A stretch of DNA of 64,000 nucleotides from Burkholderia pyrrocinia. Its GTDB lineage: Bacteria; Pseudomonadota; Gammaproteobacteria; Burkholderiales; Burkholderiaceae. Both the position numbers and the translations under genes were made by a program. Below, piece after piece: positions 7,666 to 28,602 of the stretch. Positions within the stretch are counted from its first letter, which is position 1, and each line of letters begins with the position of its first letter. The notes beneath the pieces were generated by a model. The model searched no databases and was not told the DNA's origin. It saw only the letters and a program-made list of their open reading frames with translations. The stretch is from NCBI RefSeq assembly GCF_003330765.1, contig NZ_CP024902.1, forward strand, positions 2,728,001-2,792,000, read 5' to 3'.

Positions 7666-8661
7666 TCACGCCTTCAGCTTGATCAGCGCCTTCGGGCGCG
7701 TGCACAGGTGGATCGGATTCGACTGCGCTTCGATCTCAACGCCCTTGCCGAAGTCCATCAGCTCCTGCTTCGCGTAGTACGGCAGACCGGTCGTGTTGAC
7801 CGCCTCGACGTAGTCGGCCGGCGCGAAGCGCGTGATGAACAGATCCGGAACGCCTTCGGGAATCGCATGCGCCTCGTCGTCCGCCACATAGCCGATGTCA
7901 CCGACGCGGCCACGATATCGCTCGAACGTGCAACCGCCGAAGTCGAACGCATCACGTGCGTCGCCGCGCAGCGACGCCGCCATTGCAGTCGCCAGATACG
8001 TTTCCTTGACCGTCTTCGCGACGATCAGCTTGTTCCAGAACGCGCGACCACAGAGCACGCGCACGCCGGTGTACGTCGTCGCGCCAAGGGCATCCTCGAT
8101 CGCGTCCTGCACCTCGACGCACTTCACACGGATCTCCGTGTCGGCCTTGCCCAGCTCAAAGGAGATCACCGTCTGCTCGATGCCGAAGTACTGCAGCAGG
8201 TCGATCAGTACCGTCTTGCCGTCCGCGTCCAGCACCGCGCCCTTGATCGCACCGATGCGATGGAATTCGTGCGTGGCGTCGAGCTGGCGACGCATCTTCG
8301 CGAGCCGGCGATTCACGACAGTCTGCAGCGCCTCCAGCTCGGTTTCCGAACCGAACGCGCGCAGATTCTGGATCTCGTCAGCCTTGATGGTCGCGCGTTG
8401 CGGCAGGTGCACCGTATTGAACGGGATCATCTTGCGCTTGCTGCCGCCGACGACGGCGGCCGGCGACCCGCGCTCGCCAGCCGCAACGAGCGACAGCGTG
8501 TCGCCGTCGCGCTCGATCTGGATCGTCGTCGTCGTGATGCCGTCCTCTTCGAACAGCCCGAGCGTGCCGATCCGGCCAGGAACGTACGGCTGCTCGTTGA
8601 TCGCAGCACTCAGGGACGACAGCGAGAACGCATCGTCATTAAACAGGGCGATATCCGCCAT
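7666..8661 (-). CDS. Major capsid protein E (lambda gpE family)
   Basis: The 331-residue length is typical of gpE. The ATG at 8661 (MADIALFNDDAFSLSSLSAA) is chosen because upstream sequence in the frame includes the terminator hairpin. Family features include KRKMIPFNTVHLPQ near residue 75-90, LGKADTEIRVKC, RVLCGRAFWNKLI around 205-220, and the ending with QSNPIHLCTRPKALIKLKA. About 400-plus copies build the icosahedral shell. It sits directly after decoration protein D, as in lambda. Confidence 0.92.
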   Translation of the reverse strand: MADIALFNDDAFSLSSLSAAINEQPYVPGRIGTLGLFEEDGITTTTIQIERDGDTLSLVAAGERGSPAAVVGGSKRKMIPFNTVHLPQRATIKADEIQNLRAFGSETELEALQTVVNRRLAKMRRQLDATHEFHRIGAIKGAVLDADGKTVLIDLLQYFGIEQTVISFELGKADTEIRVKCVEVQDAIEDALGATTYTGVRVLCGRAFWNKLIVAKTVKETYLATAMAASLRGDARDAFDFGGCTFERYRGRVGDIGYVADDEAHAIPEGVPDLFITRFAPADYVEAVNTTGLPYYAKQELMDFGKGVEIEAQSNPIHLCTRPKALIKLKA

Positions 8662-14920: not shown

Positions 14921-15508
14921 TCATTCTCGCAATTGGCGGCGCATTGTGTCGGACACCGATCCATTCACGTGATCGAGCAACGAATGCATGTCGTGAAAAC
15001 GACGCGACCAGTGCCGGCGGTATTCGTCGAGTGGGATACCGAGTGCATGCGCTCGTGCCGGTTCATCGATTGGACGCTTACCGGACCCCGAGCAATCCGG
15101 GCAGATATATCGACCGTCTCGACGCACAATGCCGCGTCCTTCGCACCGCACACATTGATCGTTGATCCATTCATCGAGCAGACGCAACGCGAAGCGCTCG
15201 ACGATATCAACCTTCGCACGCTCGACTTCGTGTCCTGCCCTCTGATCGCGGCGTTCGTCACGATTCAGGCCCGTAAACCGATTGCGCTTAAACCGACCCG
15301 ACAATCTGATCATCTGCGCAAATAGCAACGTGGCCTTGCGGATCGTCGCGGGCTTCGTCTCTTGCCCCGCCTTGATCCGGACCAGCAACCGACCGAGATC
15401 ATTCGCAAAGGCGAGTGCGCCCAAAGTAACTTTAGGATCGGCAATAGGATCAGTGAACTGACCACGAACACTCATTGCAACGCCTGCCCGCTCCATCAAA
15501 TCGATCAT
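14921..15508 (-). CDS. Zinc-finger protein in Q antiterminator position
   Basis: The 195-residue protein starts at ATG 15508 after an AGGAGAG site. Residues ~119-145 hold a CxxCxGxG-N9-CxxCxGxG finger (CVRCEGRG, then CPDCSGSG), like the DnaJ-type and lambda-Q-type fingers. N-terminal helices (LGALAFANDLGRLLVRIKAG) and a basic middle (RFKRNRFTGLNRDERRDQR) precede it. It is the last gene of the leftward early operon and is followed by a terminator and the late genes, which strongly suggests late-gene antitermination. The sequence alone does not prove membership of a specific Q family. Confidence 0.62.
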   Translation of the reverse strand: MIDLMERAGVAMSVRGQFTDPIADPKVTLGALAFANDLGRLLVRIKAGQETKPATIRKATLLFAQMIRLSGRFKRNRFTGLNRDERRDQRAGHEVERAKVDIVERFALRLLDEWINDQCVRCEGRGIVRRDGRYICPDCSGSGKRPIDEPARAHALGIPLDEYRRHWSRRFHDMHSLLDHVNGSVSDTMRRQLRE

Positions 15509-15536
15509 GACTCTCTCCTATTCGTCCTAATGTCTT

Positions 15537-15654
15537 AATGTCCCAAGGGAAAAGGCTTGCAGGGGTGCGCGCCTGCGACATGCGCGACATGCGCCGCTCA
15601 CGTCGCGCATGTCGCGCCCCTGCACCCGCGCCCGAGACCGCGCCTTGGGACATT
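15537..15654. repeat. Three-tier nested inverted repeat, candidate replication origin or regulatory structure
   Basis: Three perfect arm pairs are nested about one centre: AATGTCCCAAGG 15537-15548 with 15643-15654; TGCAGGGG 15558-15565 with 15617-15624; GCGACATGCGCGAC 15575-15588 with 15602-15615 (loop of 13). The rest of the 222-bp gene-free interval (15509-15730) also has short direct repeats of TAATGTC and GGGACAT. The region lies immediately downstream of the primase-helicase gene and upstream of the Q-like gene. Confidence 0.75.
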
Positions 15655-15730
15655 GGGACATGGGACGTCCACAGCGCGCCAAGGCGGGGCAAGTGGCGCG
15701 CTTACCGTGCAGGCACAGCGCGCCACGCCA

Positions 15731-18244
15731 TCACAGCGGACTGTCGTCATCGCCCGCCGCTACCAGTTCACGCTCGACTTCCAGTTCCTGCTCCGGCTCC
15801 TCGCGCACGTAGTACCATCCGCGCGAACCCGTCGACTCACGCTTGCGCACCCAACCGAGCGACTTCAGCGCCTTGCCAATCCGGCGCTGTTCCGGCAATG
15901 TCCATTTCGACGTGTCGAGCTTCAGGATGTCTGAGAGGATCTCTTCCATCGTCGTGCGCGCAACGTATTCCAGGGCCTTGGCGATCTTGTCCTCGTACAC
16001 GTCACCCTCGTAGCGCTCAGCCTGCTCGATCTCGAACAGCGGTCGCTCCTGCTCGGTCACGTGCCACACGACGCCCGAGCGGTATAGGTGCACGGCTTCG
16101 GCCCAAAGCTGATCACGCACAGCCACGATGCCGTCGATGTCGACGAGAGCACTGACACGCAGCGGCCAATAGCGCCGGTTGCCTGATTCGTCTTTCAGAT
16201 ACGTGTCAAAGTTGACGGAGCCCGCGAACACGCATTGGCGCGGTACGTCGGTCGCCCGCTTGCCGTAGAAGTTACGGAACCGGTCGACGGCCGTCGCGAA
16301 GAAGCTCTTCACCGCCGACGAATCGGCCTTGTTCAGCGAGTCCAGCTCGGCCAGCTCGATCACCCACTTGCCGGCCAGCACCGCGTATGTGTCCTTGTTA
16401 CCGATCTGGATCGGCGTATCGGTGAACCACGGCGCACCGGCCAGCACCTTCAGCGCCGTCGATTTGCGGTACCCCTGCTTGCCTTCGAGGATAAGCACGT
16501 TGTCGACCTTGCAGCCCGGCTCCATCACGCGAGCCACGGCCGCGATCATCCACTTCATGAACGCGAGCTGCACGTAGTCGCTATCGGCCACACGCAGGTA
16601 TGTCGACGGCATCGTGCGCACGCGCGGTACGCCGTCCCATTTCAGCCCTTCGAGATATTCGCTCACGTCATGAAAGTGGGTTGCGTCCGCGACAAGCAGG
16701 ACCGCGTTCATCACGATATCGGTGCGTACCGAGAGGCCGTACCGCTGCGACAACCAGAGCACGCAGCGTTGATCATCCATGTCGGTCCACTCACCTGTCG
16801 TACCTTGCGGGAACGGCGGCGCACGGCGCTTCATCACCCGGCCACCGAAATCGTCCTGCTCAATGACGCCCTGCCATGCCTTGTGGTTCGACAGGATCAG
16901 GTGCACGTTTCCAAGCGTCGGCAGCAGTGTGCCCTTGTCCGACCGCGCGAGATCCTGTTCCCACGTGTGTGCGCCGTTCTCTGCCTCGCGCCCGTCCCAT
17001 TCCGACAGGTTCGCGGCAGCGGACGTCGCGGCGGCTTTCGATTGCGCAGCGTCTGCGGCCGTCACGGCCATCACCGCCGGTCGGATGTCGTCATTCGCTG
17101 GCGCGATGACGCGCAGGATTGCGCCCTGTATCTGAGCCTCAACGGCTTCGAAGCCCTCTTCAACGTGCAGGTCATTGAAATCGGTCAGCTTGCGCTCGCC
17201 GCGATTGGCGAACGCCGGATAGATGACGCTGACGTCGTCGACCGACGCTGCCGCCTCGTACGCGCGCTTCAGACCGGTGTTCTCGAAGCGCTTGCGACGA
17301 AGCGGCATCACGTCGTTACCGTAACTCACCTCGACGTACGGCACGCCGTTGTCGTCACGACGACGCGACGCGGCGATCATGTACCACGTGTTCTTTGCCT
17401 CGATCCGCACCGGATCGGCACCAAACACCAGCTCGCCACGGAACGTGAACTCGTCGGCGAGCCAGTCGCGCATGCGTTGCTCGATCTTCCAGTCATCGTC
17501 GGCGCAGACCAGCACGTGCACATCAGGATACGTTGCACGCAGGTAGCGCACGGCCGGGAGGATGCCGCCCGCGTCAAAGCAGATATTGACTGCGAACGCG
17601 TCGTCGATCGCCATACGGATCGCACGCGCGGTTGCGTAGCCTTCGGCTACCAGCACGACCTGGTCGTCTGCGCAGACCTCGCCGAGCAGATACGAAGCCC
17701 CCTTCTTTTCCATGCCCTTGTTGAAGCGCTTCGCGCCGTCCTGCGTGATCTTCTGCAGGCCGACGAGACGAGCGTCGTCGCCGTACTGATACATCGGAAC
17801 GAATATCGTGCCGTCCGCATCGAAGCGCACGCCTTCAGCCGTGATGTGCTTGCGGTCCAGGTATGCGGACTCGCCATGCTCTGCCGCACGACTCCACTGA
17901 TCGCTCGCCCGGTTCGCGGCGAGCTTTGCCTGCCGAGCCTCCCGCTCGGCCTGCTCGCGCTCGGCCACCTCCTGCCGACGACGGGTTTCGGCGAGCGTTT
18001 CCTCGCTCAACGGTGCACCGCTCCATTCGAAACGTTCGGTGCCCGGATCGTCGCCCGAAAAATGGCCGAACGTGCCGCCATAGCCGATTACCGCGCCCTT
18101 GCTGACAACCTCTCGAAGCTGATACCAGTATTTCTTGCGCGGCCCGTACCGATGATGCTTACCGTCCGCGACCGGATGGCCGGTAGGCAGGTCGGGATGC
18201 CCCGCCGCGCGCAATTGCTGAATGATCTGGTCAAGTGTCGCCAT
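15731..18244 (-). CDS. Phage primase-helicase (Toprim plus VirE/VapE-type ATPase)
   Basis: The 837-residue protein is the replication protein. Residues ~1-60 are a DNA-binding start (MATLDQIIQQLRAAGHPDLP, YGPRKKYWYQL). A Toprim domain follows, with LVAEGYATARAI (Glu201) and VLVCADDD (249-251). The C-terminal half is a VirE/VapE-type P-loop ATPase: GKQGYRKST at 588-596, Walker B WVIELAELDSL at 628-638, then FAGSVNFDTYLKDESGNRRY. It ends in a winged-helix-like acidic tail. The ATG at 18244 follows GGGGAG; the frame upstream lacks family similarity. Gene position corresponds to lambda O/P. Confidence 0.9.
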   Translation of the reverse strand: MATLDQIIQQLRAAGHPDLPTGHPVADGKHHRYGPRKKYWYQLREVVSKGAVIGYGGTFGHFSGDDPGTERFEWSGAPLSEETLAETRRRQEVAEREQAEREARQAKLAANRASDQWSRAAEHGESAYLDRKHITAEGVRFDADGTIFVPMYQYGDDARLVGLQKITQDGAKRFNKGMEKKGASYLLGEVCADDQVVLVAEGYATARAIRMAIDDAFAVNICFDAGGILPAVRYLRATYPDVHVLVCADDDWKIEQRMRDWLADEFTFRGELVFGADPVRIEAKNTWYMIAASRRRDDNGVPYVEVSYGNDVMPLRRKRFENTGLKRAYEAAASVDDVSVIYPAFANRGERKLTDFNDLHVEEGFEAVEAQIQGAILRVIAPANDDIRPAVMAVTAADAAQSKAAATSAAANLSEWDGREAENGAHTWEQDLARSDKGTLLPTLGNVHLILSNHKAWQGVIEQDDFGGRVMKRRAPPFPQGTTGEWTDMDDQRCVLWLSQRYGLSVRTDIVMNAVLLVADATHFHDVSEYLEGLKWDGVPRVRTMPSTYLRVADSDYVQLAFMKWMIAAVARVMEPGCKVDNVLILEGKQGYRKSTALKVLAGAPWFTDTPIQIGNKDTYAVLAGKWVIELAELDSLNKADSSAVKSFFATAVDRFRNFYGKRATDVPRQCVFAGSVNFDTYLKDESGNRRYWPLRVSALVDIDGIVAVRDQLWAEAVHLYRSGVVWHVTEQERPLFEIEQAERYEGDVYEDKIAKALEYVARTTMEEILSDILKLDTSKWTLPEQRRIGKALKSLGWVRKRESTGSRGWYYVREEPEQELEVERELVAAGDDDSPL

Positions 18245-18338
18245 ACGAAAATCTCCCCTCAAAAAGTTGCTTTGGCCGCAACTCGCGGCCCGATCCTCAA
18301 ATTCCCTCAGCCGCGCCCGTGGCAGGCCCGGCGTCCCA

Positions 18339-18506
18339 TTAGCTCTTACCGCCCGCCAGCAAAGCGAACCGAATATCCCGCGCGAGCTTGTGGGAAAAAT
18401 TGCGCCAGATACCGCGCCCGGCCGCATAGCATTGCCGGCTCGTCGGCACGCGGGCGTAATGCGACGCGCCTCGCCGCAACGCACTACTGGTTCCGTTCAC
18501 GTTCAC
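18339..18506 (-). CDS. Possible 55-residue early phage protein
   Basis: A GTG at 18506 with GGAG six bases upstream opens a 55-codon frame (MNVNGTSSALRRGASHYARV then RQCYAAGRGIWRNF, ending FALLAGGKS). It begins 12 bp after the preceding gene and ends 94 bp before the primase start. The basic, one-helix composition resembles the small host-takeover or DNA-binding proteins common in phage early operons, but I know no family for it. Confidence 0.4.
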   Translation of the reverse strand: MNVNGTSSALRRGASHYARVPTSRQCYAAGRGIWRNFSHKLARDIRFALLAGGKS

Positions 18507-18518
18507 TTCGGTCTCCGG

Positions 18519-18902
18519 TTATTTGCCGCGCAGTCGACGCCACTCAGCGGTCATGCGTTCGTCGAATGCGGAAAGGTCGGCCGCGCAGAGCTGGCCGACG
18601 ATCTGATCGCGGAACGCGTGACGTTCCGCCTTGGTAGAAAGTGCCGCACACATGCGAGCGGCCGTGACGTTGAACGCGTCGACTCGACCGACGCGCTGCG
18701 CTTCCGCGAGGAACACGCCAATGCGATCTGGAAACGTCGCGATCAGGTCGGCGAGGAGCCGGCCGGACTGATCCGGAGCGACATCGAACCGTTCGGCGAG
18801 CGCGGCCGTTGCACATGCAAGCTGTTGCGCGTGTCCACAGCACAACTCGACCTGCTCGCGCGCTACGCGACAACACCCCATGCCAGGCTTGAATCGCTCC
18901 AT
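18519..18902 (-). CDS. Early phage protein, unknown, helical
   Basis: The 127-residue product starts one base after the stop of the CP76-like gene (TGAAATG), so it is probably translated by coupling. It is mostly helical (CGHAQQLACATAALAERFDV, GRLLADLIATFPDRIGVFLA) and ends in a basic EWRRLRGK. Six cysteines lie in the first 30 residues (GMGCCRVA, ELCCGHA, ACAT). No family is recognised. It lies between the CII-position regulator and the replication gene. Confidence 0.65.
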   Translation of the reverse strand: MERFKPGMGCCRVAREQVELCCGHAQQLACATAALAERFDVAPDQSGRLLADLIATFPDRIGVFLAEAQRVGRVDAFNVTAARMCAALSTKAERHAFRDQIVGQLCAADLSAFDERMTAEWRRLRGK

Positions 18903-18903
18903 T

Positions 18904-19461
18904 TCAGCGACGACGACGTTTAGCGAGGTTGCGGGCCGCGTGGATCAGCTTCTGGAACAAGCGCTGTCCCTTTCGCCCCGTCGCGATGATCTCCTCGGCC
19001 TTGCGGTCATCGATCCGCTGATCTTCAAGCGCGCGCGTCACGTCGTCGGCAACGCGACCGACATGCGCCTGCAGGTGCAGGGTTGTCGAGACAAGATGCA
19101 TCGTGCCCGGCTCAAGCGCTTCATCTACCCCGTGGTCGTCGACATGCTCGGCGACCAACCCAAAGCGAGCGTTCAGGGCGTGCAGCGCGTCGAGCGCATG
19201 CACGCTCGCCTCGGTCTTTTCCTGCATCCACTCGATCAACAGCTCGAACATTTCCATCGACAAGCGGCTGTCGCCAACACCACGAAGGCGCAGACGCAGC
19301 GACTCGGTCGTGACGTTCTTACCGCGTCGGATGGTCAGGTAGTTCGCCGCGTCGGCAACGCCGCCGGGCGTGTCGCGAACGGACGTATAGAGGACGTCCA
19401 GCCATTCGGTACTGTCGTATCGGCAGGTCATAGGGGGAGATTGGTAGACAGTGGCTTTCAT
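18904..19461 (-). CDS. Phage regulatory protein CII-position (CP76 family)
   Basis: The 185-residue frame contains the CP76/phage-CII motif series: DVLYTSVRDTPGGVADAANY, then NVTTESLRLRLRGVGDSRLS with a helix-turn-helix, then MFELLIEWMQEKTEASVHAL. Family members regulate the lysis-lysogeny decision and occupy the cII slot after cro. I use ATG 19461; ATG 19431 (MTCRYDSTEW) is possible and neither has a clear ribosome site. The C-terminus is basic (AARNLAKRRRR). Confidence 0.78.
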   Translation of the reverse strand: MKATVYQSPPMTCRYDSTEWLDVLYTSVRDTPGGVADAANYLTIRRGKNVTTESLRLRLRGVGDSRLSMEMFELLIEWMQEKTEASVHALDALHALNARFGLVAEHVDDHGVDEALEPGTMHLVSTTLHLQAHVGRVADDVTRALEDQRIDDRKAEEIIATGRKGQRLFQKLIHAARNLAKRRRR

Positions 19462-19540
19462 CCTGTCGCGCACTCGAAGCCACAACTAAGATTTGGCTCA
19501 TGAGGTGCGTAACGGCTGCGGTCACGCAACAGCGAGTGCT

Positions 19541-19750
19541 TCACAACGACTCGTCGTGTGAATCTAGAGAGGCAAACAGGTCGGGACGCGCGAGCTTCAA
19601 GAACAACAGACGCGCTCGCGGAATGCCGTTTCGACGCCATTCCGATACGGACGGCATCCGGACTTCGCAAAGTTGAGCGGTTGCAGCCGTACCGCCAAAT
19701 GCTTCGATCACGGCGCACGCGTACGGGTCTCGATTCAGGAGCGTATTCAT
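19541..19750 (-). CDS. Cro-like helix-turn-helix protein (YdaS type)
   Basis: The 69-residue product (MNTLLNRDPYACAVIEAFGG, then TAATAQLCEVRMPSVSEWRR, ending SLDSHDESL) has the single helix-turn-helix of YdaS/Cro-type proteins. It is divergent from the repressor across 70 bp of operator DNA. Its predicted promoter (-35 TTGCAT at 19780-19785, -10 TAACAT at 19757-19762) places the RNA start at or next to the ATG, and no ribosome site is visible, so it is probably leaderless. It would shut off repressor synthesis and start the leftward early operon. Confidence 0.8.
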   Translation of the reverse strand: MNTLLNRDPYACAVIEAFGGTAATAQLCEVRMPSVSEWRRNGIPRARLLFLKLARPDLFASLDSHDESL

Positions 19751-19756
19751 GCCGTC

Positions 19757-19785
19757 ATGTTAGGCGCTCCTTATACGAAATGCAA
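19757..19785 (-). promoter_or_regulatory. Leftward early promoter (PR equivalent)
   Basis: On the minus strand, TTGCAT and TAACAT are separated by 17 bp. Operators overlap both elements. The layout is nearly the same as that of the rightward promoter at 20635-20663. Confidence 0.7.
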
Positions 19786-19821
19786 GGCATTCCTAATGCC
19801 CATTCAGTTAGGCTTTCCTAA
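19760..19821. promoter_or_regulatory. Right operator cluster, three TTAGG-N4-CCTAA sites
   Basis: Three 14-bp sites lie between cro and the repressor: TTAGGCGCTCCTTA (19760-19773), CAAGGCATTCCTAA (19783-19796) and TTAGGCTTTCCTAA (19808-19821). The first covers the cro -10, the second lies against its -35, and the third ends on the A of the repressor ATG. This resembles the tripartite OR of lambda. Confidence 0.72.
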
Positions 19822-20249
19822 TGACGACACTAGCCGAACGCCTGGAACAGGCAATGAAGTTGCCGCCCGAGAAAAAGGCTGCGGATCTGGCGCGAGCGTG
19901 CCGAGTGCGAGCGCCCTCGGTCAGCGACTGGTTAAGCGGTAAGACGAAAAAAATGGAAGGCGCGAATTTGCTACTCGCGGCCGAATTCCTGAACGTCGAT
20001 CCCTGGTGGCTTGCCACCGGTGAAGGACAGATGGAGCGCCGAGCCAATGCACCCGCCCCACAGAGACAGGAGACGCTAGGCGCACATGCTCAAGCGCTGG
20101 TCGACGCGCTCGCCAAAGCAGATAAGGTCGGGTTGCCATCTGCAGCGTTTGTCGCGCTGCTTGAAACCCTCAAGGTGTTTGAAGACCTGCGCGGGCGGCA
20201 GTCTGGTGATCTTCTCGATCTGAATGCCCCTGACCCACAAGAGGGGTAA
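19821..20249 (+). CDS. Short CI-type prophage repressor lacking peptidase domain
   Basis: The 142-residue protein has an N-terminal XRE helix-turn-helix (MTTLAERLEQAMKLPPEKKA, DLARACRVRAPSVSDWLSGK, TKKMEGANLLLAAEFLNVD). This start is that of S24-type phage repressors, but the S24 self-cleavage domain is missing. In its place are ~65 residues forming two likely helices (LGAHAQALVDALAKADKVG, FVALLETLKVFEDL). The ATG overlaps an operator and has no leader, so it may be translated from a leaderless mRNA. It would hold lysogeny by binding the operators on both sides, but RecA-driven self-cleavage is not expected. Confidence 0.8.
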   Translation: MTTLAERLEQAMKLPPEKKAADLARACRVRAPSVSDWLSGKTKKMEGANLLLAAEFLNVDPWWLATGEGQMERRANAPAPQRQETLGAHAQALVDALAKADKVGLPSAAFVALLETLKVFEDLRGRQSGDLLDLNAPDPQEG

Positions 20250-20469
20250 GGTTCCAGTCGAATACTGCAGCTCTACGGTGCGTTCCGACCTGCCCGGAAC
20301 GTATTCCGCGACCTCTGATCGGGCCGCCAAGAAGCTCCACATCCCAATCGAAGTCTTCACTGCCATGCGGGCCGATGACCCGCACTAGCACACCGATACG
20401 CGATCGATTCCGGCATCGACTGACGATCGCCACATCGCCCGGTTTGCAGCGCAATTCCCCTGTTGACAT
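20170..20469 (-). CDS. LexA-controlled small protein convergent with the repressor, candidate antirepressor
   Basis: From ATG 20469 the frame gives 99 residues: STGELRCKPGDVAIVSRCRN, then IGVLVRVIGPHG, DWDVELLGGPIRGRG and DWNLTPLVGQGHSD. The CKPGD-(A/V)-I-V and DW-V-LGG-P pattern belongs to a family of small beta-rich phage proteins of unknown role. Its last 80 bp overlap the repressor 3' end on the other strand. A perfect LexA-type box sits in its predicted promoter. SOS-induced expression could inactivate the repressor by protein binding or by opposing transcription; both are inference. Confidence 0.68.
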   Translation of the reverse strand: MSTGELRCKPGDVAIVSRCRNRSRIGVLVRVIGPHGSEDFDWDVELLGGPIRGRGIRSGQVGTHRRAAVFDWNLTPLVGQGHSDREDHQTAARAGLQTP

Positions 20470-20512
20470 AGCCCCGCAACAACCTCCCCTCGGCAATATT
20501 TTCGCTTAATCA

Positions 20513-20541
20513 CTGTATAAACATACAGTATTTAATCGTAA
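20513..20541 (-). promoter_or_regulatory. LexA (SOS) box and minus-strand promoter
   Basis: CTGTATAAACATACAG (20513-20528) fits the beta/gamma-proteobacterial LexA consensus CTGT-N8-ACAG and is a near-perfect palindrome. On the minus strand it covers a -10 TATACA (20514-20519) with -35 TTACGA (20536-20541) and a 16-bp spacer. Bound LexA would block this promoter, which faces the 20170-20469 gene. Confidence 0.75.
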
Positions 20542-20621
20542 GAATACAACACCTTTCAAAGAGATTCGCTGTGTTCGCCTCATGCCGAACACGACGACGA
20601 ATCGCGATGCCATCGAAAGAG

Positions 20622-20660
20622 TTAGGAATTCCTATTGCAAATTGACAAAGGAATGCCTAA
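20622..20660. promoter_or_regulatory. Left operator cluster, two TTAGG-N4-CCTAA sites
   Basis: TTAGGAATTCCTAT (20622-20635) and AAAGGAATGCCTAA (20647-20660) share the core of the sites at 19760-19821. They flank and overlap the -35 and -10 of the rightward promoter, the OL position in a lambda-like layout. Confidence 0.72.
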
Positions 20661-20663
20661 CAT
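20635..20663 (+). promoter_or_regulatory. Rightward early promoter (PL equivalent)
   Basis: TTGCAA (20635-20640) and TAACAT (20658-20663) are separated by 17 bp. The -10 hexamer and spacer length are the same as at the leftward promoter, and operators lie in matching places. It reads toward the 20706-26034 gene series. Confidence 0.7.
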
Positions 20664-20705
20664 TCGACTCCAACGCTGCCGTTCGCGCAGTCATCGGAGA
20701 AGCCC

Positions 20706-20924
20706 ATGAAAATGTTCGACCATCAGTCCACCGATCGCCACGAATGGCTTCGTGACGAACACGCGCCCCGTATCACGCCATCCGAGCCGGCCCGTCAAAG
20801 CAACTTTGAGAAGTCGAAGATCTTCCGCTGGACGGTCGTCGCCGCTTTGCTGTTTGTCGTCGTGAACGTGTTCCAAGACGACCCGGTCGTCGCACCGACG
20901 ACCGCGTACCACGTCACCGTCTAA
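20706..20924 (+). CDS. Small single-pass membrane protein, first rightward early gene
   Basis: The 72-residue product has a charged cytoplasmic-looking start (MKMFDHQSTDRHEWLRDEHA), then one membrane helix at residues ~41-57 (FRWTVVAALLFVVVNVF), then a short tail. The ATG follows CGGAGAAG. It is the first gene after the operator-controlled promoter, the position of superinfection-exclusion or membrane-acting early proteins in other phages, but no family match is known to me. Confidence 0.72.
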   Translation: MKMFDHQSTDRHEWLRDEHAPRITPSEPARQSNFEKSKIFRWTVVAALLFVVVNVFQDDPVVAPTTAYHVTV

Positions 20925-20974
20925 ACCGCCCCGATCCTGCCGGGGCGAGCGCCTCCGGCGTCATGGAGACCACC

Positions 20975-21337
20975 ATGCCGCGTTTCAAAGTCAAACCCCT
21001 TCCCCTCGTCGACCTCGAACGTCGCGACACCCTGTCGCTTCGCACGATCGTCCACTACGACCCGAATGCACGACGCCCCTCGACGCCAATCCTCGTCGGC
21101 AAGTACGTTGTGGGCCGCCGCCCCTTGCCCGATAGCGTCCATACGCTTTACATGATCCTCGACGGGGCCGAGATCGCCCACTCGCAGATCTCGATTCCGA
21201 GCGAAGGCGACTGCGCGTCCGCTATCAAGCGCCTGCGCGATGCGAAGCGCGCAGCGGGCTTGGCAGCATCGAAGGCGATCAACAAGGCGAAGAAACCCTC
21301 CAAGGCTCGCAGCCAGACGGCCGAGGAGGTTGCGTAA
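20975..21337 (+). CDS. Early phage protein, unknown
   Basis: The start at ATG 20975 (MPRFKVKPLPLVDLERRDTL) has GGAG eight bases upstream; ATG 20963 overlaps that site and is less likely. The 120-residue protein has a beta-rich middle (GKYVVGRRPLPDSVHTLYMI, GAEIAHSQISIPSEG) and a basic, Ala/Lys-rich C-terminal helix (AASKAINKAKKPSKAR). Its stop overlaps the ParB-like gene start by one base. Confidence 0.7.
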   Translation: MPRFKVKPLPLVDLERRDTLSLRTIVHYDPNARRPSTPILVGKYVVGRRPLPDSVHTLYMILDGAEIAHSQISIPSEGDCASAIKRLRDAKRAAGLAASKAINKAKKPSKARSQTAEEVA

Positions 21338-22686
21338 TGGACGACCGCACGCAACAACTCGACCTGACCGCGCCGATCCCGACCGGGAACACGAAGACTG
21401 CCGCAGCCGCAGCGGGCGCAACGTCGGCAGACCTGTGGATGGTCCCCTACGGTCAACTTCACTATGATCCGGCCGACAACATCCGACCGGTTGACCCCGA
21501 GTGGGTGACGCACCTCACTGCATTGATCGTCGAGAACGGGTACGACAAGGGCTCGCCGCTGCATTGCTACGCGCGAAAGGTCGACGGGAAGGATCTGCTT
21601 TACGTGTACAAGGGGCAGCACCGCTACCTCGCGGCCGGCAAGGCAATCGAGGCCGGCAAGGACGTCGGCAAGATCCCCGTCGTCGTTCGTGATGCAAAGA
21701 CGGTTAACCGCGCCGACATGGTGATCGACGGCTACCTGAGCAACGACAGCAAGCGATCGTCGCCGCTCGATCTGGCGGCCGCTGTTGCCGAGCTTCGCGA
21801 CATTCACGGCATGACCCTCGCGGCGATCTGCAAGCGCCTGAATGTCACTGACCAATCAATCCGCGACGTCGGCCTGCTCGAACGCGCACCGGTCGAACTG
21901 CACCAGATGGTTCGCGACGGCGCGGTCGCCGGCACGCTCGCGATCGAACAGATCCGCGAACATGGGGCAGACAAGGCACTGGACCGGCTGCAGAAAGGCG
22001 CGGCGAAGGCCGCTGCGTCAGGCAAGGCCCGCGTAACGAAGAAACACCTCGACGCAGCGCCCCAGCCGTCGCCGGCCGCAGACGCGCCTGTCGAGGCACA
22101 GGCGCCAGCCCAAACGCCCGCACGCCCGACCGCGCCCACCAAGATCAGCGAGAAGCAATCAAAGCAGCTTTTGCAGGCACTGCAGGCCGTGCTGCATGAC
22201 CCGGTATTCGGCAAGCTTTCTCCGGGCACTATCGACGCCGTAGATATCGCGCTCAAGCCGCTCGCAGATATGCTCGATGCAACGTCGGTACGCAAAACCG
22301 CGTATGCAATTGCCACCGCGAACGAACACGGCGTCTATACGCCGACAGACGTCGTAACCGCGCCGAAGCAACAGCGCACCGGACGAAGCCCGGCAGAAAT
22401 TCGTGTCGCGCTGATTGCGGAAGGTGAGTGGATCTACGGCATGGATTACACGATCGGGATGGCCGGCGGCGCATCGCCGTGCTCATACCACGAGGGAATG
22501 CCGACCCATCCAACCCGCGTGCAGGCAATTCGCGGGGCCGTGCGCGACCTCACCCGCCGCATCGAGACGAGCCCCACCATGTCGAAAGCCAAGGAGACTG
22601 CCAGCGTGCGTAAGTGGCTCGACAAGCTGTATGCGATGCCCGACCCCGACTGGACGTCGGAAATGGCGCTGGAGACGCCCAAATGA
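21337..22686 (+). CDS. ParB/Srx-type domain protein, early phage gene
   Basis: The 449-residue protein has a ParB-type N-terminal domain with the nucleotide-binding signature YKGQHRYLAAGKAIE (GQHR at 93-96), followed by a ParB central helix-turn-helix (MTLAAICKRLNVTDQSIRDV). A Pro/Ala linker (residues ~240-270) leads to an unassigned C-terminal domain with GEWIYGMDYTIGMAGGASPC and two late helices. No ParA partner is present, so plasmid-type partitioning is unlikely. ParB-like phage proteins may regulate transcription or cut DNA. The ribosome site GAGGAGG is strong. Confidence 0.82.
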   Translation: MDDRTQQLDLTAPIPTGNTKTAAAAAGATSADLWMVPYGQLHYDPADNIRPVDPEWVTHLTALIVENGYDKGSPLHCYARKVDGKDLLYVYKGQHRYLAAGKAIEAGKDVGKIPVVVRDAKTVNRADMVIDGYLSNDSKRSSPLDLAAAVAELRDIHGMTLAAICKRLNVTDQSIRDVGLLERAPVELHQMVRDGAVAGTLAIEQIREHGADKALDRLQKGAAKAAASGKARVTKKHLDAAPQPSPAADAPVEAQAPAQTPARPTAPTKISEKQSKQLLQALQAVLHDPVFGKLSPGTIDAVDIALKPLADMLDATSVRKTAYAIATANEHGVYTPTDVVTAPKQQRTGRSPAEIRVALIAEGEWIYGMDYTIGMAGGASPCSYHEGMPTHPTRVQAIRGAVRDLTRRIETSPTMSKAKETASVRKWLDKLYAMPDPDWTSEMALETPK

Positions 22687-23132
22687 CCTCGCGCCCGGCC
22701 CTTTCTACCCTACGTCCGCTGCCGCGAAAGCGGGAACACGCGAAGAACCGCCCGGCTATCGCACTGGCGAGCGTCAACGGCACTTCGATGCAGTCGAACA
22801 GCGACGGGCTGACGCCCGCAAAAGCGATCCAGAAAGACGAAGCGCCGCTCGCGCGGCGCAAACCTATCCAGACGAACGAAGCCTTGGCGGATGCCCGCCA
22901 AGGCAGGCTCGCGCGACTCGACGCCCTTCGCATCGAGATCCGCGACCTAATCACCGAGATCTCGCACGCAGCCGACGTCGAGCTGCTGGACCTGATGGCC
23001 AACGAGATCGGATCGTTCGCTCGCCACAAGGCAGCGCAGGATGCGCGCGCCTGGGCCGCAACCGCCGGCATCACGCTGGAAACCGGTTTGATGCAGCTCG
23101 GCCGCGCACTGCCACAACACAAAGCAAAGTGA
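22683..23132 (+). CDS. Early phage protein, unknown, helical
   Basis: The ATG at 22683 overlaps the preceding stop (AAATGA), so translation is coupled. The 149-residue product has a basic disordered N-terminus (LSTLRPLPRKREHAKNRPA) and a helical C-terminal half (RLDALRIEIRDLITEISHAA, DVELLDLMANEIGSF). No recognised domain. Confidence 0.65.
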   Translation: MTSRPALSTLRPLPRKREHAKNRPAIALASVNGTSMQSNSDGLTPAKAIQKDEAPLARRKPIQTNEALADARQGRLARLDALRIEIRDLITEISHAADVELLDLMANEIGSFARHKAAQDARAWAATAGITLETGLMQLGRALPQHKAK

Positions 23133-23133
23133 A

Positions 23134-23592
23134 ATGACCCGACGCAACAGTCCTTTTGAAGTCTGCGGGCTCAAACCAATCAGGCAGGACAGCGAAGGTC
23201 CCCTCTTTAACCCTGCCGAAGCTGCCACGATGGTTGCGAATTACATCAATGCAGACACACACTACTTTCAGCGAAAAACAAAAGATATGAATACCGATTT
23301 TGCAAAAGCCGAATCCGCCACCCAAGATGCGATCGCACTCTTCGAGCGTTCACTGTCTCGCATGGTCGACGCCGAAAAGCAAGTTGCTGAGTCCACGAAA
23401 AAAGCAGCGGGGAGTGTTCGGAAGTCTGCAAACGAACTCGGCGATACGATGCAACGTCTCTTGAAAACGGCGGATATCGACCGCCTTGAACGGTACGCAA
23501 CCGTCCTCGAACGCATGGCAACCGCTATGCACGCATTGGCTACCTTGGAGATCGACGGCAAGCTCGATCGTATTGTCAGCGCCATTCGATAA
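23134..23592 (+). CDS. Coiled-coil early phage protein, unknown
   Basis: The 152-residue product starts one base after the previous stop. After a short variable start (GLKPIRQDSEGPLFN), residues ~45-150 are almost wholly helical with a heptad-like pattern (AESATQDAIALFERSLSRMV, AEKQVAESTKKAAGSVRKSA, DIDRLERYATVLERMATAM). Base composition is less GC-rich than the phage structural genes. Function unknown. Confidence 0.68.
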   Translation: MTRRNSPFEVCGLKPIRQDSEGPLFNPAEAATMVANYINADTHYFQRKTKDMNTDFAKAESATQDAIALFERSLSRMVDAEKQVAESTKKAAGSVRKSANELGDTMQRLLKTADIDRLERYATVLERMATAMHALATLEIDGKLDRIVSAIR

Positions 23593-23604
23593 CCGGGGAA
23601 AGTC

Positions 23605-24306
23605 ATGGAAAATTTCACCAGCAACTACGATGCCCTGCAAGCAGCCGCCGAACGCGCCACTAAGGGGAACTGGATCAATGTCGGCGCATGGGTAGAAAAC
23701 GAGCGCGACGACCTGAAGGATATTTGCGACTGCCGCCCAAACGGGAACGAAGACGACGAGCAGGCGCTGCTCGACGCCGCCTATATCGCCCTCGCGAACC
23801 CTGACACCATCCTTCGCCTTCTCCGTGAATGGCGTACCGCGCGAGAAGCCACCTCGCAGCATCCCACGCAAGCGAGCGTTGCAGCCAACCAACTTTGCCT
23901 CTGCGGCACCGTGCTCGCCCATACGCACCACCACTGCGCCACGCCCGTGATGTGGCGTATGTACGAGGAATCCAATGCGTTCCGGAACACGACCGCAGCA
24001 GCACGCGACATACTGACGGAACGCCACCGACAGATTCAGCATGAAGGTCTGACGCCTGATCGCGACGACGGCTATACCGAGGCGGAATTACCCCGTGCAG
24101 CCGCCGCGTACGTTCTCAGCGCCTGCGGGTTCAGCAACGCCGTTACGCTGGATTTCTGGCCGTGGATCACGGACTGGTGGAAGCCGACAACTCCTCGACG
24201 GAATCTCGTGAAAGCCGCCGCATTGATCCTCGCCGAGATCGAACGCATCGACCGAGATCCGGGCGATGAATCCCACCATGACCACCTGAACGGGGGATCA
24301 CTGTGA
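23605..24306 (+). CDS. Ead/Ea22-like early phage protein
   Basis: The 233-residue product has an N-terminal region of the Ead/Ea22 kind (ALLDAAYIALANPDTILRLL following DALQAAAERATKGNWI), a Cys/His cluster (LCLCGTVLAHTHHHC), and a conserved C-terminal part (AARDILTERHRQIQHEGLTP, ELPRAAAAYVLSACG, WKPTTPRRNLVKAAALILAE) seen in many phage accessory proteins. The biochemical role is unknown. It overlaps the next gene start by 4 bp. Confidence 0.7.
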   Translation: MENFTSNYDALQAAAERATKGNWINVGAWVENERDDLKDICDCRPNGNEDDEQALLDAAYIALANPDTILRLLREWRTAREATSQHPTQASVAANQLCLCGTVLAHTHHHCATPVMWRMYEESNAFRNTTAAARDILTERHRQIQHEGLTPDRDDGYTEAELPRAAAAYVLSACGFSNAVTLDFWPWITDWWKPTTPRRNLVKAAALILAEIERIDRDPGDESHHDHLNGGSL

Positions 24307-24533
24307 GCCTGTTGACCCGCGCATACATCCTTGAGAAGTACGGCCCGCGCATGACACTGGCGCAGCTCGCGCGGCTACTTCTCATGTCGGAGGGAACCAT
24401 CCGCAATCAGATCAGCGCCGAAACGTTCCCGATCCCGACTTACAAGGAAGGTGGCGGCCGCTTTGCTGCATACGACGCCGTCGCAGAGTACCTCGACGAT
24501 ATGTCCCGTCGCGCCCGCGCCGAAGCCGCATAG
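24303..24533 (+). CDS. Small helix-turn-helix protein, PrtN- or excisionase-like
   Basis: The 76-residue product starts at GTG 24303, overlapping the previous stop. It reads LLTRAYILEKYGPRMTLAQL, then LLLMSEGTIRNQISAETFPI and YDAVAEYLDDMSRRARAEA. The YG...L...T...I...FP pattern resembles PrtN-type activators and MerR-like excisionases. As the last small gene before the methylase module and integrase, it may direct excision or activate transcription. I cannot choose between the two. Confidence 0.62.
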   Translation: MSLLTRAYILEKYGPRMTLAQLARLLLMSEGTIRNQISAETFPIPTYKEGGGRFAAYDAVAEYLDDMSRRARAEAA

Positions 24534-24612
24534 TCCACTTGTGAGCGACTGGTGGCGCGCCGCGTTAAAATCATGTATATCCTCACCAACTTAATAACAT
24601 CCGGGGCGAAAG

Positions 24613-26034
24613 ATGGCAGTTAGCGAGCCGTGGTCGACCGCAGAACTCGATCCCAAGAAGATTCAACTGGACCTACGCAATCCTCGTATCGAAATTGAAC
24701 CGAACGCCAAGCCGGCCGAGATTCGCGCGAAACTTCTGAAATTCGAGGACGTGCTTGACCTCGCACGAGGAATCATTCGGAACGAGGGCCTCTTTCACGG
24801 CGAGCGCATCATCACCGTTGTTGAGGGAGGGAAGCACATCGTCCTCGAAGGAAATCGCCGCGTCGCCGCTTGCCAAATGCTTCTAGACCCATCGCTCATT
24901 CCTGAGGAGTTTGTCGGCCGATTCCCTGCCGCCCCGCCCGCTGTCAAAGCTACTCTGCGCAAGCTGAGCGCCGACGTAGCGCCGAACAGAGAAGCAGCCG
25001 ATCCGGTGTTGACGAAACGCCACACAGAGCGCAGCGCAAAACCTTGGTCGCCGGTAGCGAAGATGCGCCGAGCGGTGCGCATGCTCGAGCACGCCCCAAT
25101 CGACAAAGTCGCTGAAGCACTCGGCACAACGCCGGGCGCAATTCGAAAACTTGTGAAGCCATACCGACTCCTCAAGTACGCACTCGATCTGGATACGTGG
25201 ACCGATGACGAACGCGCGGTACTCGAGAACGAAAAACTTGTCACCAACCCCTATACACGCTTCTTCACGTTGGCAGACACCCAGCGTATCTTGCAGTTAT
25301 CGTTCGACGCCGATCAGAACCCCGTCAGCGCACTGCCTCCGAAAGTTTTCAAAGAGCAGATGATCGCAATAGCACGCGACTTTCTGCTCCCCGACCCCGA
25401 GAAAGGCAAGCCACGTTGCGATACCCGTACGGAACCGATGAAGTATTTTGAACGGTTTCTCGAATCGCCCGAAGGCAAGAAACACATCAAGCCAGCGGAG
25501 CCACGTCAGCAACCCAAGGGTGATGGCAAAGACCCCAAAGCGCCGGGCCAGCCCGCAGGTGGCCCCAATGCCGGCGCACCGCGTCCAAAAACGCAAAAGA
25601 TATCTATTTTCTTCGAAAAACTTGAGTGCCACGTAACTGAAGACAATCTGATTGCATTGACTCGGGAAATCCGCGGAATCAACCACAAGACCACACCGAT
25701 TTCGGCTTCTTTAGTTCTACGAGCGCTATTCGAATGCGCCTTGGGTTATCAAATAAGGAAGGCCAAAAAATGGGGTGAACTCATGAAGCTCGAAAAGCAA
25801 CCGGGCCGTGACCCTGCGCTCGCCAGCATGATCAACTTTTGCTCGAACTTCAATAACGGGGTGTTTTCGGAGAATAAGATTTGCCGAGTTCTCTCTGCCG
25901 GCACCACGAAGCAAGCCAAAGATTATCTCGACTCAATGACGCACCTCAAGTATCAACAGGCCGACGCACCGACACTGGAAACGATTGCAAACAATATTCG
26001 CGGCGTCATTCAGTATATTTTGGAAGGAAACTGA
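24613..26034 (+). CDS. ParB/Srx-like protein paired with DNA methylase
   Basis: The 473-residue protein has a ParB-type N-terminus (ELDPKKIQLDLRNPRIEI; ligand motif VLEGNRRVAACQ with EGNRR at 79-83), a helix-turn-helix (DKVAEALGTTPGAIRKLVK, ~158-176), a charged Gly/Pro/Lys linker (~310-345) and a C-terminal helical domain (IFFEKLECHVTEDNLIALTR, TTPISASLVLRALFECALGY) that I cannot assign. It lies 2 bp upstream of an adenine methylase gene. Composition is more AT-rich than the phage core, a sign of a transferred module. A defence or modification role is plausible but unproven. Confidence 0.75.
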   Translation: MAVSEPWSTAELDPKKIQLDLRNPRIEIEPNAKPAEIRAKLLKFEDVLDLARGIIRNEGLFHGERIITVVEGGKHIVLEGNRRVAACQMLLDPSLIPEEFVGRFPAAPPAVKATLRKLSADVAPNREAADPVLTKRHTERSAKPWSPVAKMRRAVRMLEHAPIDKVAEALGTTPGAIRKLVKPYRLLKYALDLDTWTDDERAVLENEKLVTNPYTRFFTLADTQRILQLSFDADQNPVSALPPKVFKEQMIAIARDFLLPDPEKGKPRCDTRTEPMKYFERFLESPEGKKHIKPAEPRQQPKGDGKDPKAPGQPAGGPNAGAPRPKTQKISIFFEKLECHVTEDNLIALTREIRGINHKTTPISASLVLRALFECALGYQIRKAKKWGELMKLEKQPGRDPALASMINFCSNFNNGVFSENKICRVLSAGTTKQAKDYLDSMTHLKYQQADAPTLETIANNIRGVIQYILEGN

Positions 26035-26036
26035 AC

Positions 26037-26948
26037 ATGCCAAAGAAACTCCTCCCTCGCAACGAACCTCTTAGCCCACTGCGATACCCAGGTGGGAAGG
26101 CGCGGCTAGCCGCCTATATCAGCGGTGTCATTGAAGAAAATTATCTGAATGGCTGCACCTTTTACGAACCCTTTGCGGGTGGCGCCTCGGTTTCGCTGGA
26201 ACTGCTTCGTCTGGGCTTTATCTCTAGTGCAGTACTGATCGAGCGTGATCCATTGGTATATGCGTTCTGGTGGTGCGTCTTCAATATCACCGATGACCTC
26301 TGCGCAGCCGTCGAAGCATGCCCCGTCACGATGGAAACATGGACTCAGTTGCAACCCACAAGAGAGGTAGCCTATCCCGCGGACGGGCGTTTTACGATAC
26401 TGCAGCTCGGTGTAGCTGGACTATTCTACAATCGAACAAATTTTTCCGGCATTCTCGGCGCAGGACCAATTGGCGGGGAAGCTCAAACTTCTCGCTACAA
26501 GATCGACTGTCGCTTTAACAAAGAAAAGATCGTTCGACAAATTCGCTCAGTGGCTCGCTTTGCAGACCGAGTTAGAATTTATTGTGATGACGCAATTTCC
26601 TTCATGCGCACCAACGCAGAAGAGATCGCAACAGGATTTGCGTTTGTATACGTCGATCCGCCATATTATCAACAAGGTCCGAAGCTGTATCGACACCACT
26701 ATACCGACGCGGATCACGTTGCGCTCGCTCAATTTCTGCAAACTCAAGGCTATCCGTGGCTGCTGAGCTATGATGACCACCCTCGTATTCGCGAACTGTA
26801 CGACGGAAATACTGTTCAGCCGATCTATCTCGACTATAACGTCAAATCAAGTCGCACCGCTCGCGAACTTGCCATTTCGAACCTGATGATTCCGGTTCCA
26901 GTATATGAAGGTATGCCGGAATTGCTGGGTATAGAGGTAGAAGCGTAA
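26037..26948 (+). CDS. N6-adenine DNA methyltransferase, D12/Dam class
   Basis: The 303-residue protein starts at ATG 26037 after GGAAGG; the upstream in-frame extension lies inside the ParB-like gene. The SAM site is RYPGGKARLA (PGGK 18-21) with YEPFAGGASVSLELL, and the catalytic motif is YVDPPYY (DPPY 207-210). Order and length fit Dam/DpnM-type MTases. No restriction enzyme is recognised next to it; the partner is the ParB-like protein upstream. It converges on the integrase gene with 6 bp between stops. It may protect the phage from host restriction or modify host DNA. Confidence 0.85.
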   Translation: MPKKLLPRNEPLSPLRYPGGKARLAAYISGVIEENYLNGCTFYEPFAGGASVSLELLRLGFISSAVLIERDPLVYAFWWCVFNITDDLCAAVEACPVTMETWTQLQPTREVAYPADGRFTILQLGVAGLFYNRTNFSGILGAGPIGGEAQTSRYKIDCRFNKEKIVRQIRSVARFADRVRIYCDDAISFMRTNAEEIATGFAFVYVDPPYYQQGPKLYRHHYTDADHVALAQFLQTQGYPWLLSYDDHPRIRELYDGNTVQPIYLDYNVKSSRTARELAISNLMIPVPVYEGMPELLGIEVEA

Positions 26949-26954
26949 CGCGCT

Positions 26955-28049
26955 CTACTCGTTCACCAACTTCAATTGCCCCTTCTTCGCAACCTGATCC
27001 GGCCGCAAATTCGTGTAGCGTTTCAGGTTGCGCCAATCCTTGTGGCCGGTCACGGCCGCGACCTCGGGAATATCCCACCCGTCCTCGAAAAGTGCGCTTG
27101 TCGCTTCGTGCCGAAGGTCGTGTAGCCGCAGGTCGACGATCCCCTTGTCGACACACGCCAGCTTGAAATACTTGCTGGCCGTGCTCTTGTCGAACCGGAA
27201 GATGTACTCGTTCGGATGCGGCTCGATTGTCGGGTCCGCCTTGCGTTTTGCCTCGTACGCTGGCGGCACCGGATATCGGGCCTGACGCAGCAACACTTCG
27301 AGCGAATCGCCGATCAGCGGCACCCACTCGTCGTTGCCCTTCTTCTGTCGCGGATGCTTGCGATCACGGACGAGCGCGAGACGGCGCTCGACGTCGAGGT
27401 CCGACCACGTCAAGCGAAACAGTTCGCCACGCCGGAATGCGCTTTTCATCGCAACTCGGATCACATCCGGCACCGCTTGTTCGCGCTCCGGATGCTCCGC
27501 AAACCACTGGAAGATTTTTACGATCTCGTCGCGAGTCGGCCGGCGATCCCGATGCTTGCCGGGGCCAATGAGCTGCAGGTGATCAAGTGTCGGACGCGCA
27601 ATGCTCGGGGCATGTGGCAATCGCAGATCCAGTAGCGACGCCATGTGTTTGTACACGGTCCCGAGCTTCGAGATATCCATGTCGATCGTGTACTGCCCGG
27701 CCCCCTCTTTCTTACGCTCCTGCGCGAACTTGACCAGCCGCTTAGTCGACAGCTTCGCCGCCACTTCATCATCAAAGTGACTTTCCAGCCGCTTGAGCAT
27801 GTAGGCTTCATTCGACTTCTCGGCGACCGGTCGACCAGAGTCATTCCGCGCGCTTCGATACAAGCGCACCAGCTCGCCGACCGTGATCGTCTGTTCGTCG
27901 ACGGCACCCTGCCCCTTGTCGATTCCGCCTTCGATCTCACGCGCCCATGCTTCAGCCGCGCCCTTGGTTCGAAATGTCTTTGCTATACTCTGTCCCCGTC
28001 GGCGGATTTGAGCCCGCCAACGGTCGCCGATCTTGAGGATCGAAGCCAT
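26955..28049 (-). CDS. int: Tyrosine-type phage integrase
   Basis: The 364-residue protein starts at ATG 28049 (MASILKIGDRWRAQIRRRGQ, an arm-type DNA-binding start). Residues ~55-145 are the SAM-like core-binding domain. The catalytic domain has Arg207 in AFRRGELFRLTW, His310/Arg313 in LRLHDLRHEA, His336 in GHKDW and Tyr345 in LKRYTNL, so all key residues are present. It catalyses insertion and excision of the prophage. It converges with the methylase gene, and its promoter side faces a run of repeated TGTAGCA sites and the host tRNA. Confidence 0.92.
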   Translation of the reverse strand: MASILKIGDRWRAQIRRRGQSIAKTFRTKGAAEAWAREIEGGIDKGQGAVDEQTITVGELVRLYRSARNDSGRPVAEKSNEAYMLKRLESHFDDEVAAKLSTKRLVKFAQERKKEGAGQYTIDMDISKLGTVYKHMASLLDLRLPHAPSIARPTLDHLQLIGPGKHRDRRPTRDEIVKIFQWFAEHPEREQAVPDVIRVAMKSAFRRGELFRLTWSDLDVERRLALVRDRKHPRQKKGNDEWVPLIGDSLEVLLRQARYPVPPAYEAKRKADPTIEPHPNEYIFRFDKSTASKYFKLACVDKGIVDLRLHDLRHEATSALFEDGWDIPEVAAVTGHKDWRNLKRYTNLRPDQVAKKGQLKLVNE

Positions 28050-28068
28050 GGAATACCCCGTTTGTGGA

Positions 28069-28130
28069 CTGTAGCAATGCGTCATCCACATACACTGCTA
28101 CAGGGTCGATTTGTAGCAGAATTGTAGCAG
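28069..28130. promoter_or_regulatory. Repeated TGTAGCA sites upstream of int, likely integrase arm sites
   Basis: Four copies of TGTAGCA(G) occur in 62 bp: 28069-28076, 28096-28103 (inverted), 28111-28119 and 28122-28130. Clustered short repeats between an integrase start and the phage end are typical arm-binding sites. The attachment core itself was not identified. Confidence 0.5.
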
Positions 28131-28265
28131 GCGGGGCGTTAAACTATGCTTCACAGCCCGTCATTTCGCGTCATGCGCGGATAGACGGGAATCCCGGAAA
28201 GGCAAGCGGGACAAGGCTAAGAGCCTGATTCATAAGGGTTCGATCCTCCCCGCTCAAACTATCCG
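28131..28265. other. Probable prophage right boundary
   Basis: 135 bp between the integrase repeats and tRNA-Arg, without a gene. The segment near 28225-28256 contains a GGTTCGATCC element like a tRNA T-arm, but it does not fold into a tRNA. It could be an att remnant. The left end would be needed to define the core. Confidence 0.35.
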
Positions 28266-28340
28266 CTCCCCGTAGTTCAATGGATAGAACAAGCGCCTCC
28301 TAAGCGCTAGATACAGGTTCGATTCCTGTCGGGGGGACCA
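28266..28340 (+). tRNA. tRNA-Arg (CCT anticodon)
   Basis: A 75-base gene with encoded CCA. The acceptor arms CTCCCCG and CGGGGGG pair with one wobble, the D-arm is GTTC/GAAC, the anticodon loop in GCGCCTCCTAAGCGC holds CCT, and the T-arm is ACAGG-TTCGATT-CCTGT. It is the first host gene beyond the prophage; tRNA genes of this kind are common integration targets, although the prophage lies on its 5' side here. Confidence 0.9.
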
Positions 28341-28602
28341 GACATCCTCCATGGTTCGCCCCACTTCCCCACGAAAACCGCATCACGCCTGACGGCTTGT
28401 TACGGGCGTTCCGCAAAGCGCCATGACGATCGTGGCCTCCTGTTATTGAATCCGCCTGCAGCAGGTAAACGCTCGACGCTCAAGTACCGCGCCAACGGCC
28501 AGGGGAAGTGCCTGGCCTCGAAGCAGATCGGGGAACGGAAGCATTCAACGCACACGCCAATCGCCGAACCGCAAACTCCGTTCTACGCCGATCACGAATC
28601 GT

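Follow-up and report, generated by a model that had tools for sequence, protein, structure and literature searches.

A predicted LexA-controlled antirepressor gene convergent with a repressor lacking an S24 peptidase domain in a Burkholderia pyrrocinia prophage

The stretch of Burkholderia pyrrocinia DNA analysed here (64,000 nucleotides, referred to below as the window) contains a small gene that probably encodes a LexA-controlled antirepressor acting on the C-terminal part of the phage repressor encoded opposite it. The 99-residue product of this gene (ORF 20170-20469) was given the working name sos99. Comparison with homologous loci established sos99 as a conserved protein-coding gene, with a conserved predicted LexA box in its promoter, paired with a repressor without an S24 peptidase domain. 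This pairing recurs in many related viruses, suggesting that the unit probably serves to induce viruses with a repressor incapable of self-cleavage.

The immunity region and its LexA box

The window is part of the first contig (3.6 Mb) of a three-contig, 8.0-Mb genome, and the immunity region of a prophage is located around position 20 kb of the window. The right side of this prophage carries an integrase gene and a tRNA, and its left side carries terminase, portal, head-protease, baseplate and tail-fibre genes. The tRNA (28266-28337) was the only known RNA element found by an RNA-element scan of positions 15000-28500, and a comparison of positions 27900-28600 with the rest of the window revealed no exact direct repeats of at least 16 bases. 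The ORFs confirmed the arrangement given in the first-pass annotation, with the small gene at 20170-20469 on the reverse strand facing the repressor gene at 19821-20249 on the forward strand, and an overlap of 80 bp. The features of the region are as follows:

15731-18484, reverse strand: replication primase/helicase of the leftward operon, leftward of the CII-like gene
18904-19485, reverse strand: CII-like regulator (Phage_CP76, phrog_101), leftward of the Cro-like gene
19541-19750, reverse strand: Cro-like gene, divergent from the repressor gene (P22_Cro, E 4e-4, under the curated cut-off; phrog_8008)
19760-19821, no strand: three operator-like palindromes TTAGGNNNNCCTAA (19760, 19783 and 19808) between the repressor and Cro-like genes; putative binding sites
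19821-20249, forward strand: HTH repressor of 142 aa without an S24 domain, with an HTH, a linker and a C-terminal helical hairpin (about residues 88-126)
20170-20249, no strand: 80 bp shared by the two coding ends, under constraint in the repressor frame only
20170-20469, reverse strand: sos99, 99 aa, predicted LexA-controlled antirepressor (from ORF, selection, model and homologues)
20513-20528, no strand: LexA-type box CTGTATAAACATACAG, from a sequence scan, conserved upstream of homologues
20530-20559, reverse strand: probable sigma-70-type promoter, TTGAAA (20554-20559), 18 bp, TTAAAT (20530-20535), from conservation only
20622-20660, no strand: two operator-like palindromes (20622 and 20647) before the rightward operon; putative binding sites

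The repressor is predicted to bind the operator-like palindromes. With up to one mismatch, the TTAGGNNNNCCTAA form occurs three times in the window, versus 0.18 times expected, and no shuffled sequence reached three. With up to two mismatches, six copies were found, five of them in the two groups listed above, but the number of such palindromes in the window is not unusual as such (3.72 expected, with 20 of 100 shuffles reaching six). Relative to the start of sos99, sites at +648/651, +696/699 and about -166 are retained in all 32 close sequences, including the window; a site near -191 is kept in 31 of them, and the middle site, with up to two mismatches, in just 12. The sos99 gene lies between the two groups of palindromes and there is none at its promoter in the window, which places it inside the immunity region without an operator of its own. 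Further to the right, adjacent ORFs at 24613-26948 on the forward strand matched PD-Lambda-5_A (best E 4e-24) and PD-Lambda-5_B (best E 3e-91) in PADLOC. The second of these matches is a methyltransferase and the pair, which adjoins the integrase gene, is likely, from its sequence, to be an anti-phage defence pair carried by the prophage. Neither sos99 nor the repressor had a match in PADLOC, on which basis sos99 was ruled out as a defence gene.

The first-pass annotation described the sequence in front of sos99 as a perfect LexA box. This description holds for the inverted repeat, CTGTAT-N4-ATACAG, which is perfect in CTGTATAAACATACAG, but not for the full consensus, CTGTATATNNATACAG, from which the box differs at one position. 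The box is nevertheless the only site in the window with no more than two mismatches to CTGTATATNNATACAG. Up to three mismatches, the window contains three matches (20513-20528 on both strands and a three-mismatch site at 10401), versus 0.36 expected, a number reached by none of 100 shuffled controls. In the 8.0-Mb genome, 12 places, including the sos99 box, lie within one mismatch of the consensus; within two mismatches, there are 14 forward and 16 reverse matches, as against two and one for a control pattern read backward. The genome has a single match to the LexA DNA-binding domain, and two LexA boxes directly precede lexA. One box with no more than one mismatch precedes an ORF that we take, from reading it by eye, to be imuA-like, and a two-mismatch box lies 22 bp upstream of an ORF read in the same way as recA-like. 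The candidate TTGAAA/TTAAAT promoter stands directly before the sos99 box; a generic sigma-70 scan reported no promoter in positions 19400-20720.

Two other boxes were observed in this genome. An ORF of 112 aa, of unknown function, has a perfect LexA box 18 bp upstream, at G000:C2:1433886 (L005, L190). Another perfect box, at G000:C1:2711887 (L003, L188), is located about 16.1 kb to the left of the window and, by arithmetic, inside the span of a 46-kb viral contig matching the prophage of the window. The 234-aa ORF close to it is presumably SRAP/YedK-like. As this box falls near an ORF within the prophage-matching span, a second gene of the element may be under LexA control.

Distribution and conservation of the unit

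Homologues of sos99 were detected at E 1e-3 in 57 of 398 genomes of the family. The loci studied comprised 50 of the 72 places found in these genomes (30 loci and 20 further ones, with 22 left out), 66 loci from a viral collection, 13 from a genome collection (GTDB) and four from named phages. The nine closest of the 13 named genome loci are from Burkholderia and the remaining four, all weak, are from metagenome-assembled beta-proteobacteria. A box with no more than two mismatches was present near the start of the homologue, in a stretch of 125 bp, in 64 of 66 viral loci, 18 of 30 and 12 of 20 family-genome loci, 8 of 13 GTDB loci and all four named phages. Elsewhere in the same loci, there was one box in 821,782 bp of the viral set and none in the other four sets. 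Scanning of the neighbouring ORFs with a profile of partner repressors identified a box together with a convergent repressor in 106 of the 133 loci, a box alone in none, a repressor alone in three (L157, and L032 and L092, which are probably one place) and neither in 24; these counts are not independent, because the sets overlap and some of these repressors had also gone into the profile.

After redundancy filtering, 38 of 99 boxed pairs remained distinct. In these 38 members, the columns of the box average 1.51 bits, versus 0.55 bits for the flanking columns, and the upstream consensus is TTGAAA-N18-TAAACT. The conservation of this arrangement in distant relatives provides strong support, at the sequence level, for the earlier proposal that the small gene is under LexA control and tied to a repressor without an S24 domain. 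In one of the close copies, on a viral contig (IMGVR_UViG_2930988306_000002, L044), the sos99 frame is broken near its start and the box is intact; intact copies are common.

The same genome contains a second unit (L187, 2283-3302; G000:C1 near 1770782), in which a 100-aa homologue, with a perfect LexA box 29 bp before it, is convergent with a 131-aa repressor-like ORF, from which a small ORF then diverges. By eye, the 131-aa ORF looks like gp41 of phage KS9. Among deposited phages, no relative was found at the DNA level, and tblastn yielded none for the window sos99 or for the protein of the box-less clade described below. With two distant relatives as queries, four named Burkholderia phages were found, each query matching seven records. 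In these phages (KS9, Bcep176, BgManors32 and Magia), the only site with no more than two mismatches in the stretch examined is at the promoter of the homologue.

The homologues without a box include ten loci of a single clade (L020-L029); those of this clade and of L185 (about 7990-8290) are 48-52% identical and have a repeated setting. One box-less homologue lies near ORFs that we read as AlpA-like and primase-like, as in P4-like elements. The 24 of 133 loci with neither box nor repressor indicate that the protein family has other uses, and the box-less homologues in P4-like elements might be the same protein releasing resident prophages.

The sos99 protein, its partner repressors and alternative explanations

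The structural model of sos99 is a confident small beta barrel followed by a disordered tail (residues 81-99, pLDDT <50). In a fold search, the barrel appeared to resemble the KOW, PsaE and YorP folds, of the SH3-like small-barrel kind; none of the matches names an antirepressor, an absence that is not evidence. A search by sequence for solved structures gave nothing convincing for sos99. No Pfam match was obtained at E 0.1 for the window protein or any of the 13 members of the alignment, and membership of the DinI/Tum family was rejected on this basis. The window sos99 matched phrog_2529, a family of unknown function, weakly (E 0.0063); 10 of 13 family members match it, with a best E value of 9e-6.

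The absence of an S24 peptidase domain from the repressor, as claimed in the first-pass annotation, was found both by a domain search and in the structural model, which consists of an HTH, a linker and a helical hairpin. None of 21 partner repressors had an S24 match, and in the whole 8.0-Mb genome only LexA itself matched Peptidase_S24. The partner repressors have many types of HTH, and most share a C-terminal motif, approximately A.ALI.AI..AD..G.....F......LR; partners of the KS9, Magia and L178 types have a shorter variant of it. The HTH of the window repressor shares 49-75% identity with the N-terminal part of eight S24-bearing proteins (210-243 aa; e.g. P0143 and P0145) and 63.5% with that of the annotated S24 repressor of Acinetobacter phage vB_AbaSI_1; the long repressor of Alcaligenes phage Piluca is 41.7% identical over its N-terminus. 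No solved structure was found for the window repressor at E 0.01. The profile of the 21 repressors matched PDB chains, nearly all across the HTH, and the model of the window repressor matched HTH proteins, with a best E value of 0.0017.

The divergence of the sos99 core was correlated with that of the last 60 residues of the repressor (r 0.611) and less so with that of the HTH part (0.28; 38 distinct pairs). The partial correlations were 0.57 for the C-terminus with the HTH fixed and -0.12 for the HTH with the C-terminus fixed. In eight pairs that had similar C-termini and dissimilar HTHs, mean similarity of the sos99 core was 0.60, versus 0.35 overall, but in two of the eight it was just 0.21 and 0.24; in the one pair with a similar HTH and a dissimilar C-terminus, it was 0.14. 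This co-divergence fits contact between sos99 and the C-terminal part of the repressor, and also fits plain linkage, which could yield the correlation because the coding sequence for the C-terminal part lies between those of the HTH and sos99.

In the mechanism proposed, DNA damage would lead RecA to make LexA cleave itself, and sos99 would be transcribed. The barrel would then bind the C-terminal hairpin of the repressor, breaking repressor dimers or cooperative binding, so that the operators at 19760-19821 and 20622-20660 would be freed and the early operons would fire. The unit would do the job of the S24 domain in repressors with the same HTH. Burkholderiaceae prophages may, as we tentatively suggest, share a self-contained SOS cassette, consisting of a LexA box, a barrel antirepressor and a matching repressor hairpin encoded on opposite strands, a module plugged onto many HTHs in place of S24, with immunity specificity and damage sensing inherited separately.

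Alternatively, sos99 could be an SOS-induced prophage protein with another target, such as a host factor or an RNA- or DNA-binding factor, its adjacency to the repressor being a matter of gene order only. The loci lacking both box and repressor, in other settings, and the apparent likeness of the barrel to the KOW, PsaE and YorP folds are consistent with this explanation, which is nonetheless unlikely: the box and a convergent repressor of this type go together while the HTH types change.

The first-pass annotation left open whether antirepression was exerted by the protein, by antisense transcription or by both. The leftward SOS transcript itself might act, either as an antisense transcript of the repressor gene (through collision or antisense RNA) or by continuing into the Cro-CII-primase operon, which is on the same strand, with a secondary role for the protein. 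Consistent with such an effect, a convergent overlap of 30-110 bp, in two reading phases, was found in all 99 boxed loci (among 111), and no conserved terminator was clearly above the level in shuffled sequences (10 of 38 versus 7.0 after sos99, and 4 versus 3.6 after the repressor). However, codons 2-73 of sos99 had a pN/pS of 0.178, versus 1.9 and 2.4 in two other frames, in 23 distinct close sequences (30 considered, including the window, and 25 usable, five with indels having been dropped; the broken copy L044 was left out, as was L015, a more distant sequence). In the 80-bp overlap, pN/pS was 2.05 in the sos99 frame, versus 0.13 in the repressor frame. This pattern indicates that the body of sos99, which is also conserved across distant relatives, is a protein under selection, and that the overlapped tail is carried along. 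The protein route is thus favoured, and action mainly through the transcript appears quite improbable. Since the overlap is kept in every boxed locus, a transcript antisense to the repressor gene may add to the action of the predicted antirepressor, but this is probably not the main effect.

A chance box next to a spurious ORF, for which the one mismatch to the consensus, the absence of Pfam families for the window protein and 12 relatives and the weak PHROG match could be cited, has a negligible probability, being refuted by codon-level selection and by the conservation of box, spacing and reading frame across distant relatives.

Comparison with known systems

In the open-access literature, surveyed by titles and the starts of abstracts, with most subscription papers outside its scope, the sos99 family was not described as LexA-controlled or as an antirepressor. 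As far as this search goes, three things appear to be new: the candidacy of the sos99 family for SOS antirepression, the position of the gene within the immunity region, opposite the repressor gene and overlapping it, and the modular link to a shared repressor C-terminus. The novelty claimed in the first-pass annotation extends to the protein family and layout and not to the logic, as that annotation also said: LexA-controlled antirepression is already known from Tum, GfoA and AntC. The way in which prophages with short non-cleavable repressors sense damage is known for a few enterobacterial phages. For a large group of prophages of the Burkholderiaceae, among them KS9 with its already identified repressor, the unit provides an explanation that is concrete and can be tested. 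Proteins that carry the label hypothetical, if they are named at all, also gain a likely role. These patterns suggest that SOS-responsive prophages would be predictable from sequence, and that damage sensing resides in an interchangeable module.

Inactivation of gp41 reportedly identified the repressor of KS9. A knockout of the KS9 repressor is mentioned in PMC3091744. In this phage (NC_013055), gp40 is a sos99 homologue (69.5% identical to one relative of sos99) with a LexA box at its promoter, convergent with gp41 with an overlap of 33 bp. The gp41 protein has another HTH and the shorter C-terminal variant, and is annotated as a repressor, whereas gp40 is annotated only as hypothetical. Phage vB_AbaSI_1 differs from the window in having an S24 peptidase instead of the short hairpin, and in both this phage and Piluca the gene after the repressor runs in the same direction as the repressor.

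The hypA and hypB genes of beta-proteobacteria are presented in PMC3323433 as predicted LexA-regulated hypothetical genes, and the account of prophage induction in B. cenocepacia in PMC10710452 appears, from the portion considered, to have no bearing on the mechanism. The general point of short non-cleavable repressors with LexA-controlled antirepressors is made in PMC10432266. Tum of coliphage 186, which binds its repressor, and AntC of N15 are LexA-controlled antirepressors (PMC3121763). Tum, as described there, has 146 aa and a DinI-like half, whereas sos99 has 99 aa, a barrel in its model and no Pfam match. Also described in that source are the GfoR/GtgR repressors of the Gifsy prophages, with their LexA-controlled antirepressors GfoA/GftA (Lemire 2011, PMC3121763). 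Like the window unit, these systems combine a small non-cleavable repressor (136 aa in Gifsy-1/-2) with a small LexA-controlled antirepressor (PMC3121763). They are set apart by the layout described in PMC3121763, in which the Gifsy antirepressor gene shares an operon with a dinI homologue and is situated outside the immunity region, whereas sos99 lies inside it, convergent with and overlapping the repressor gene.
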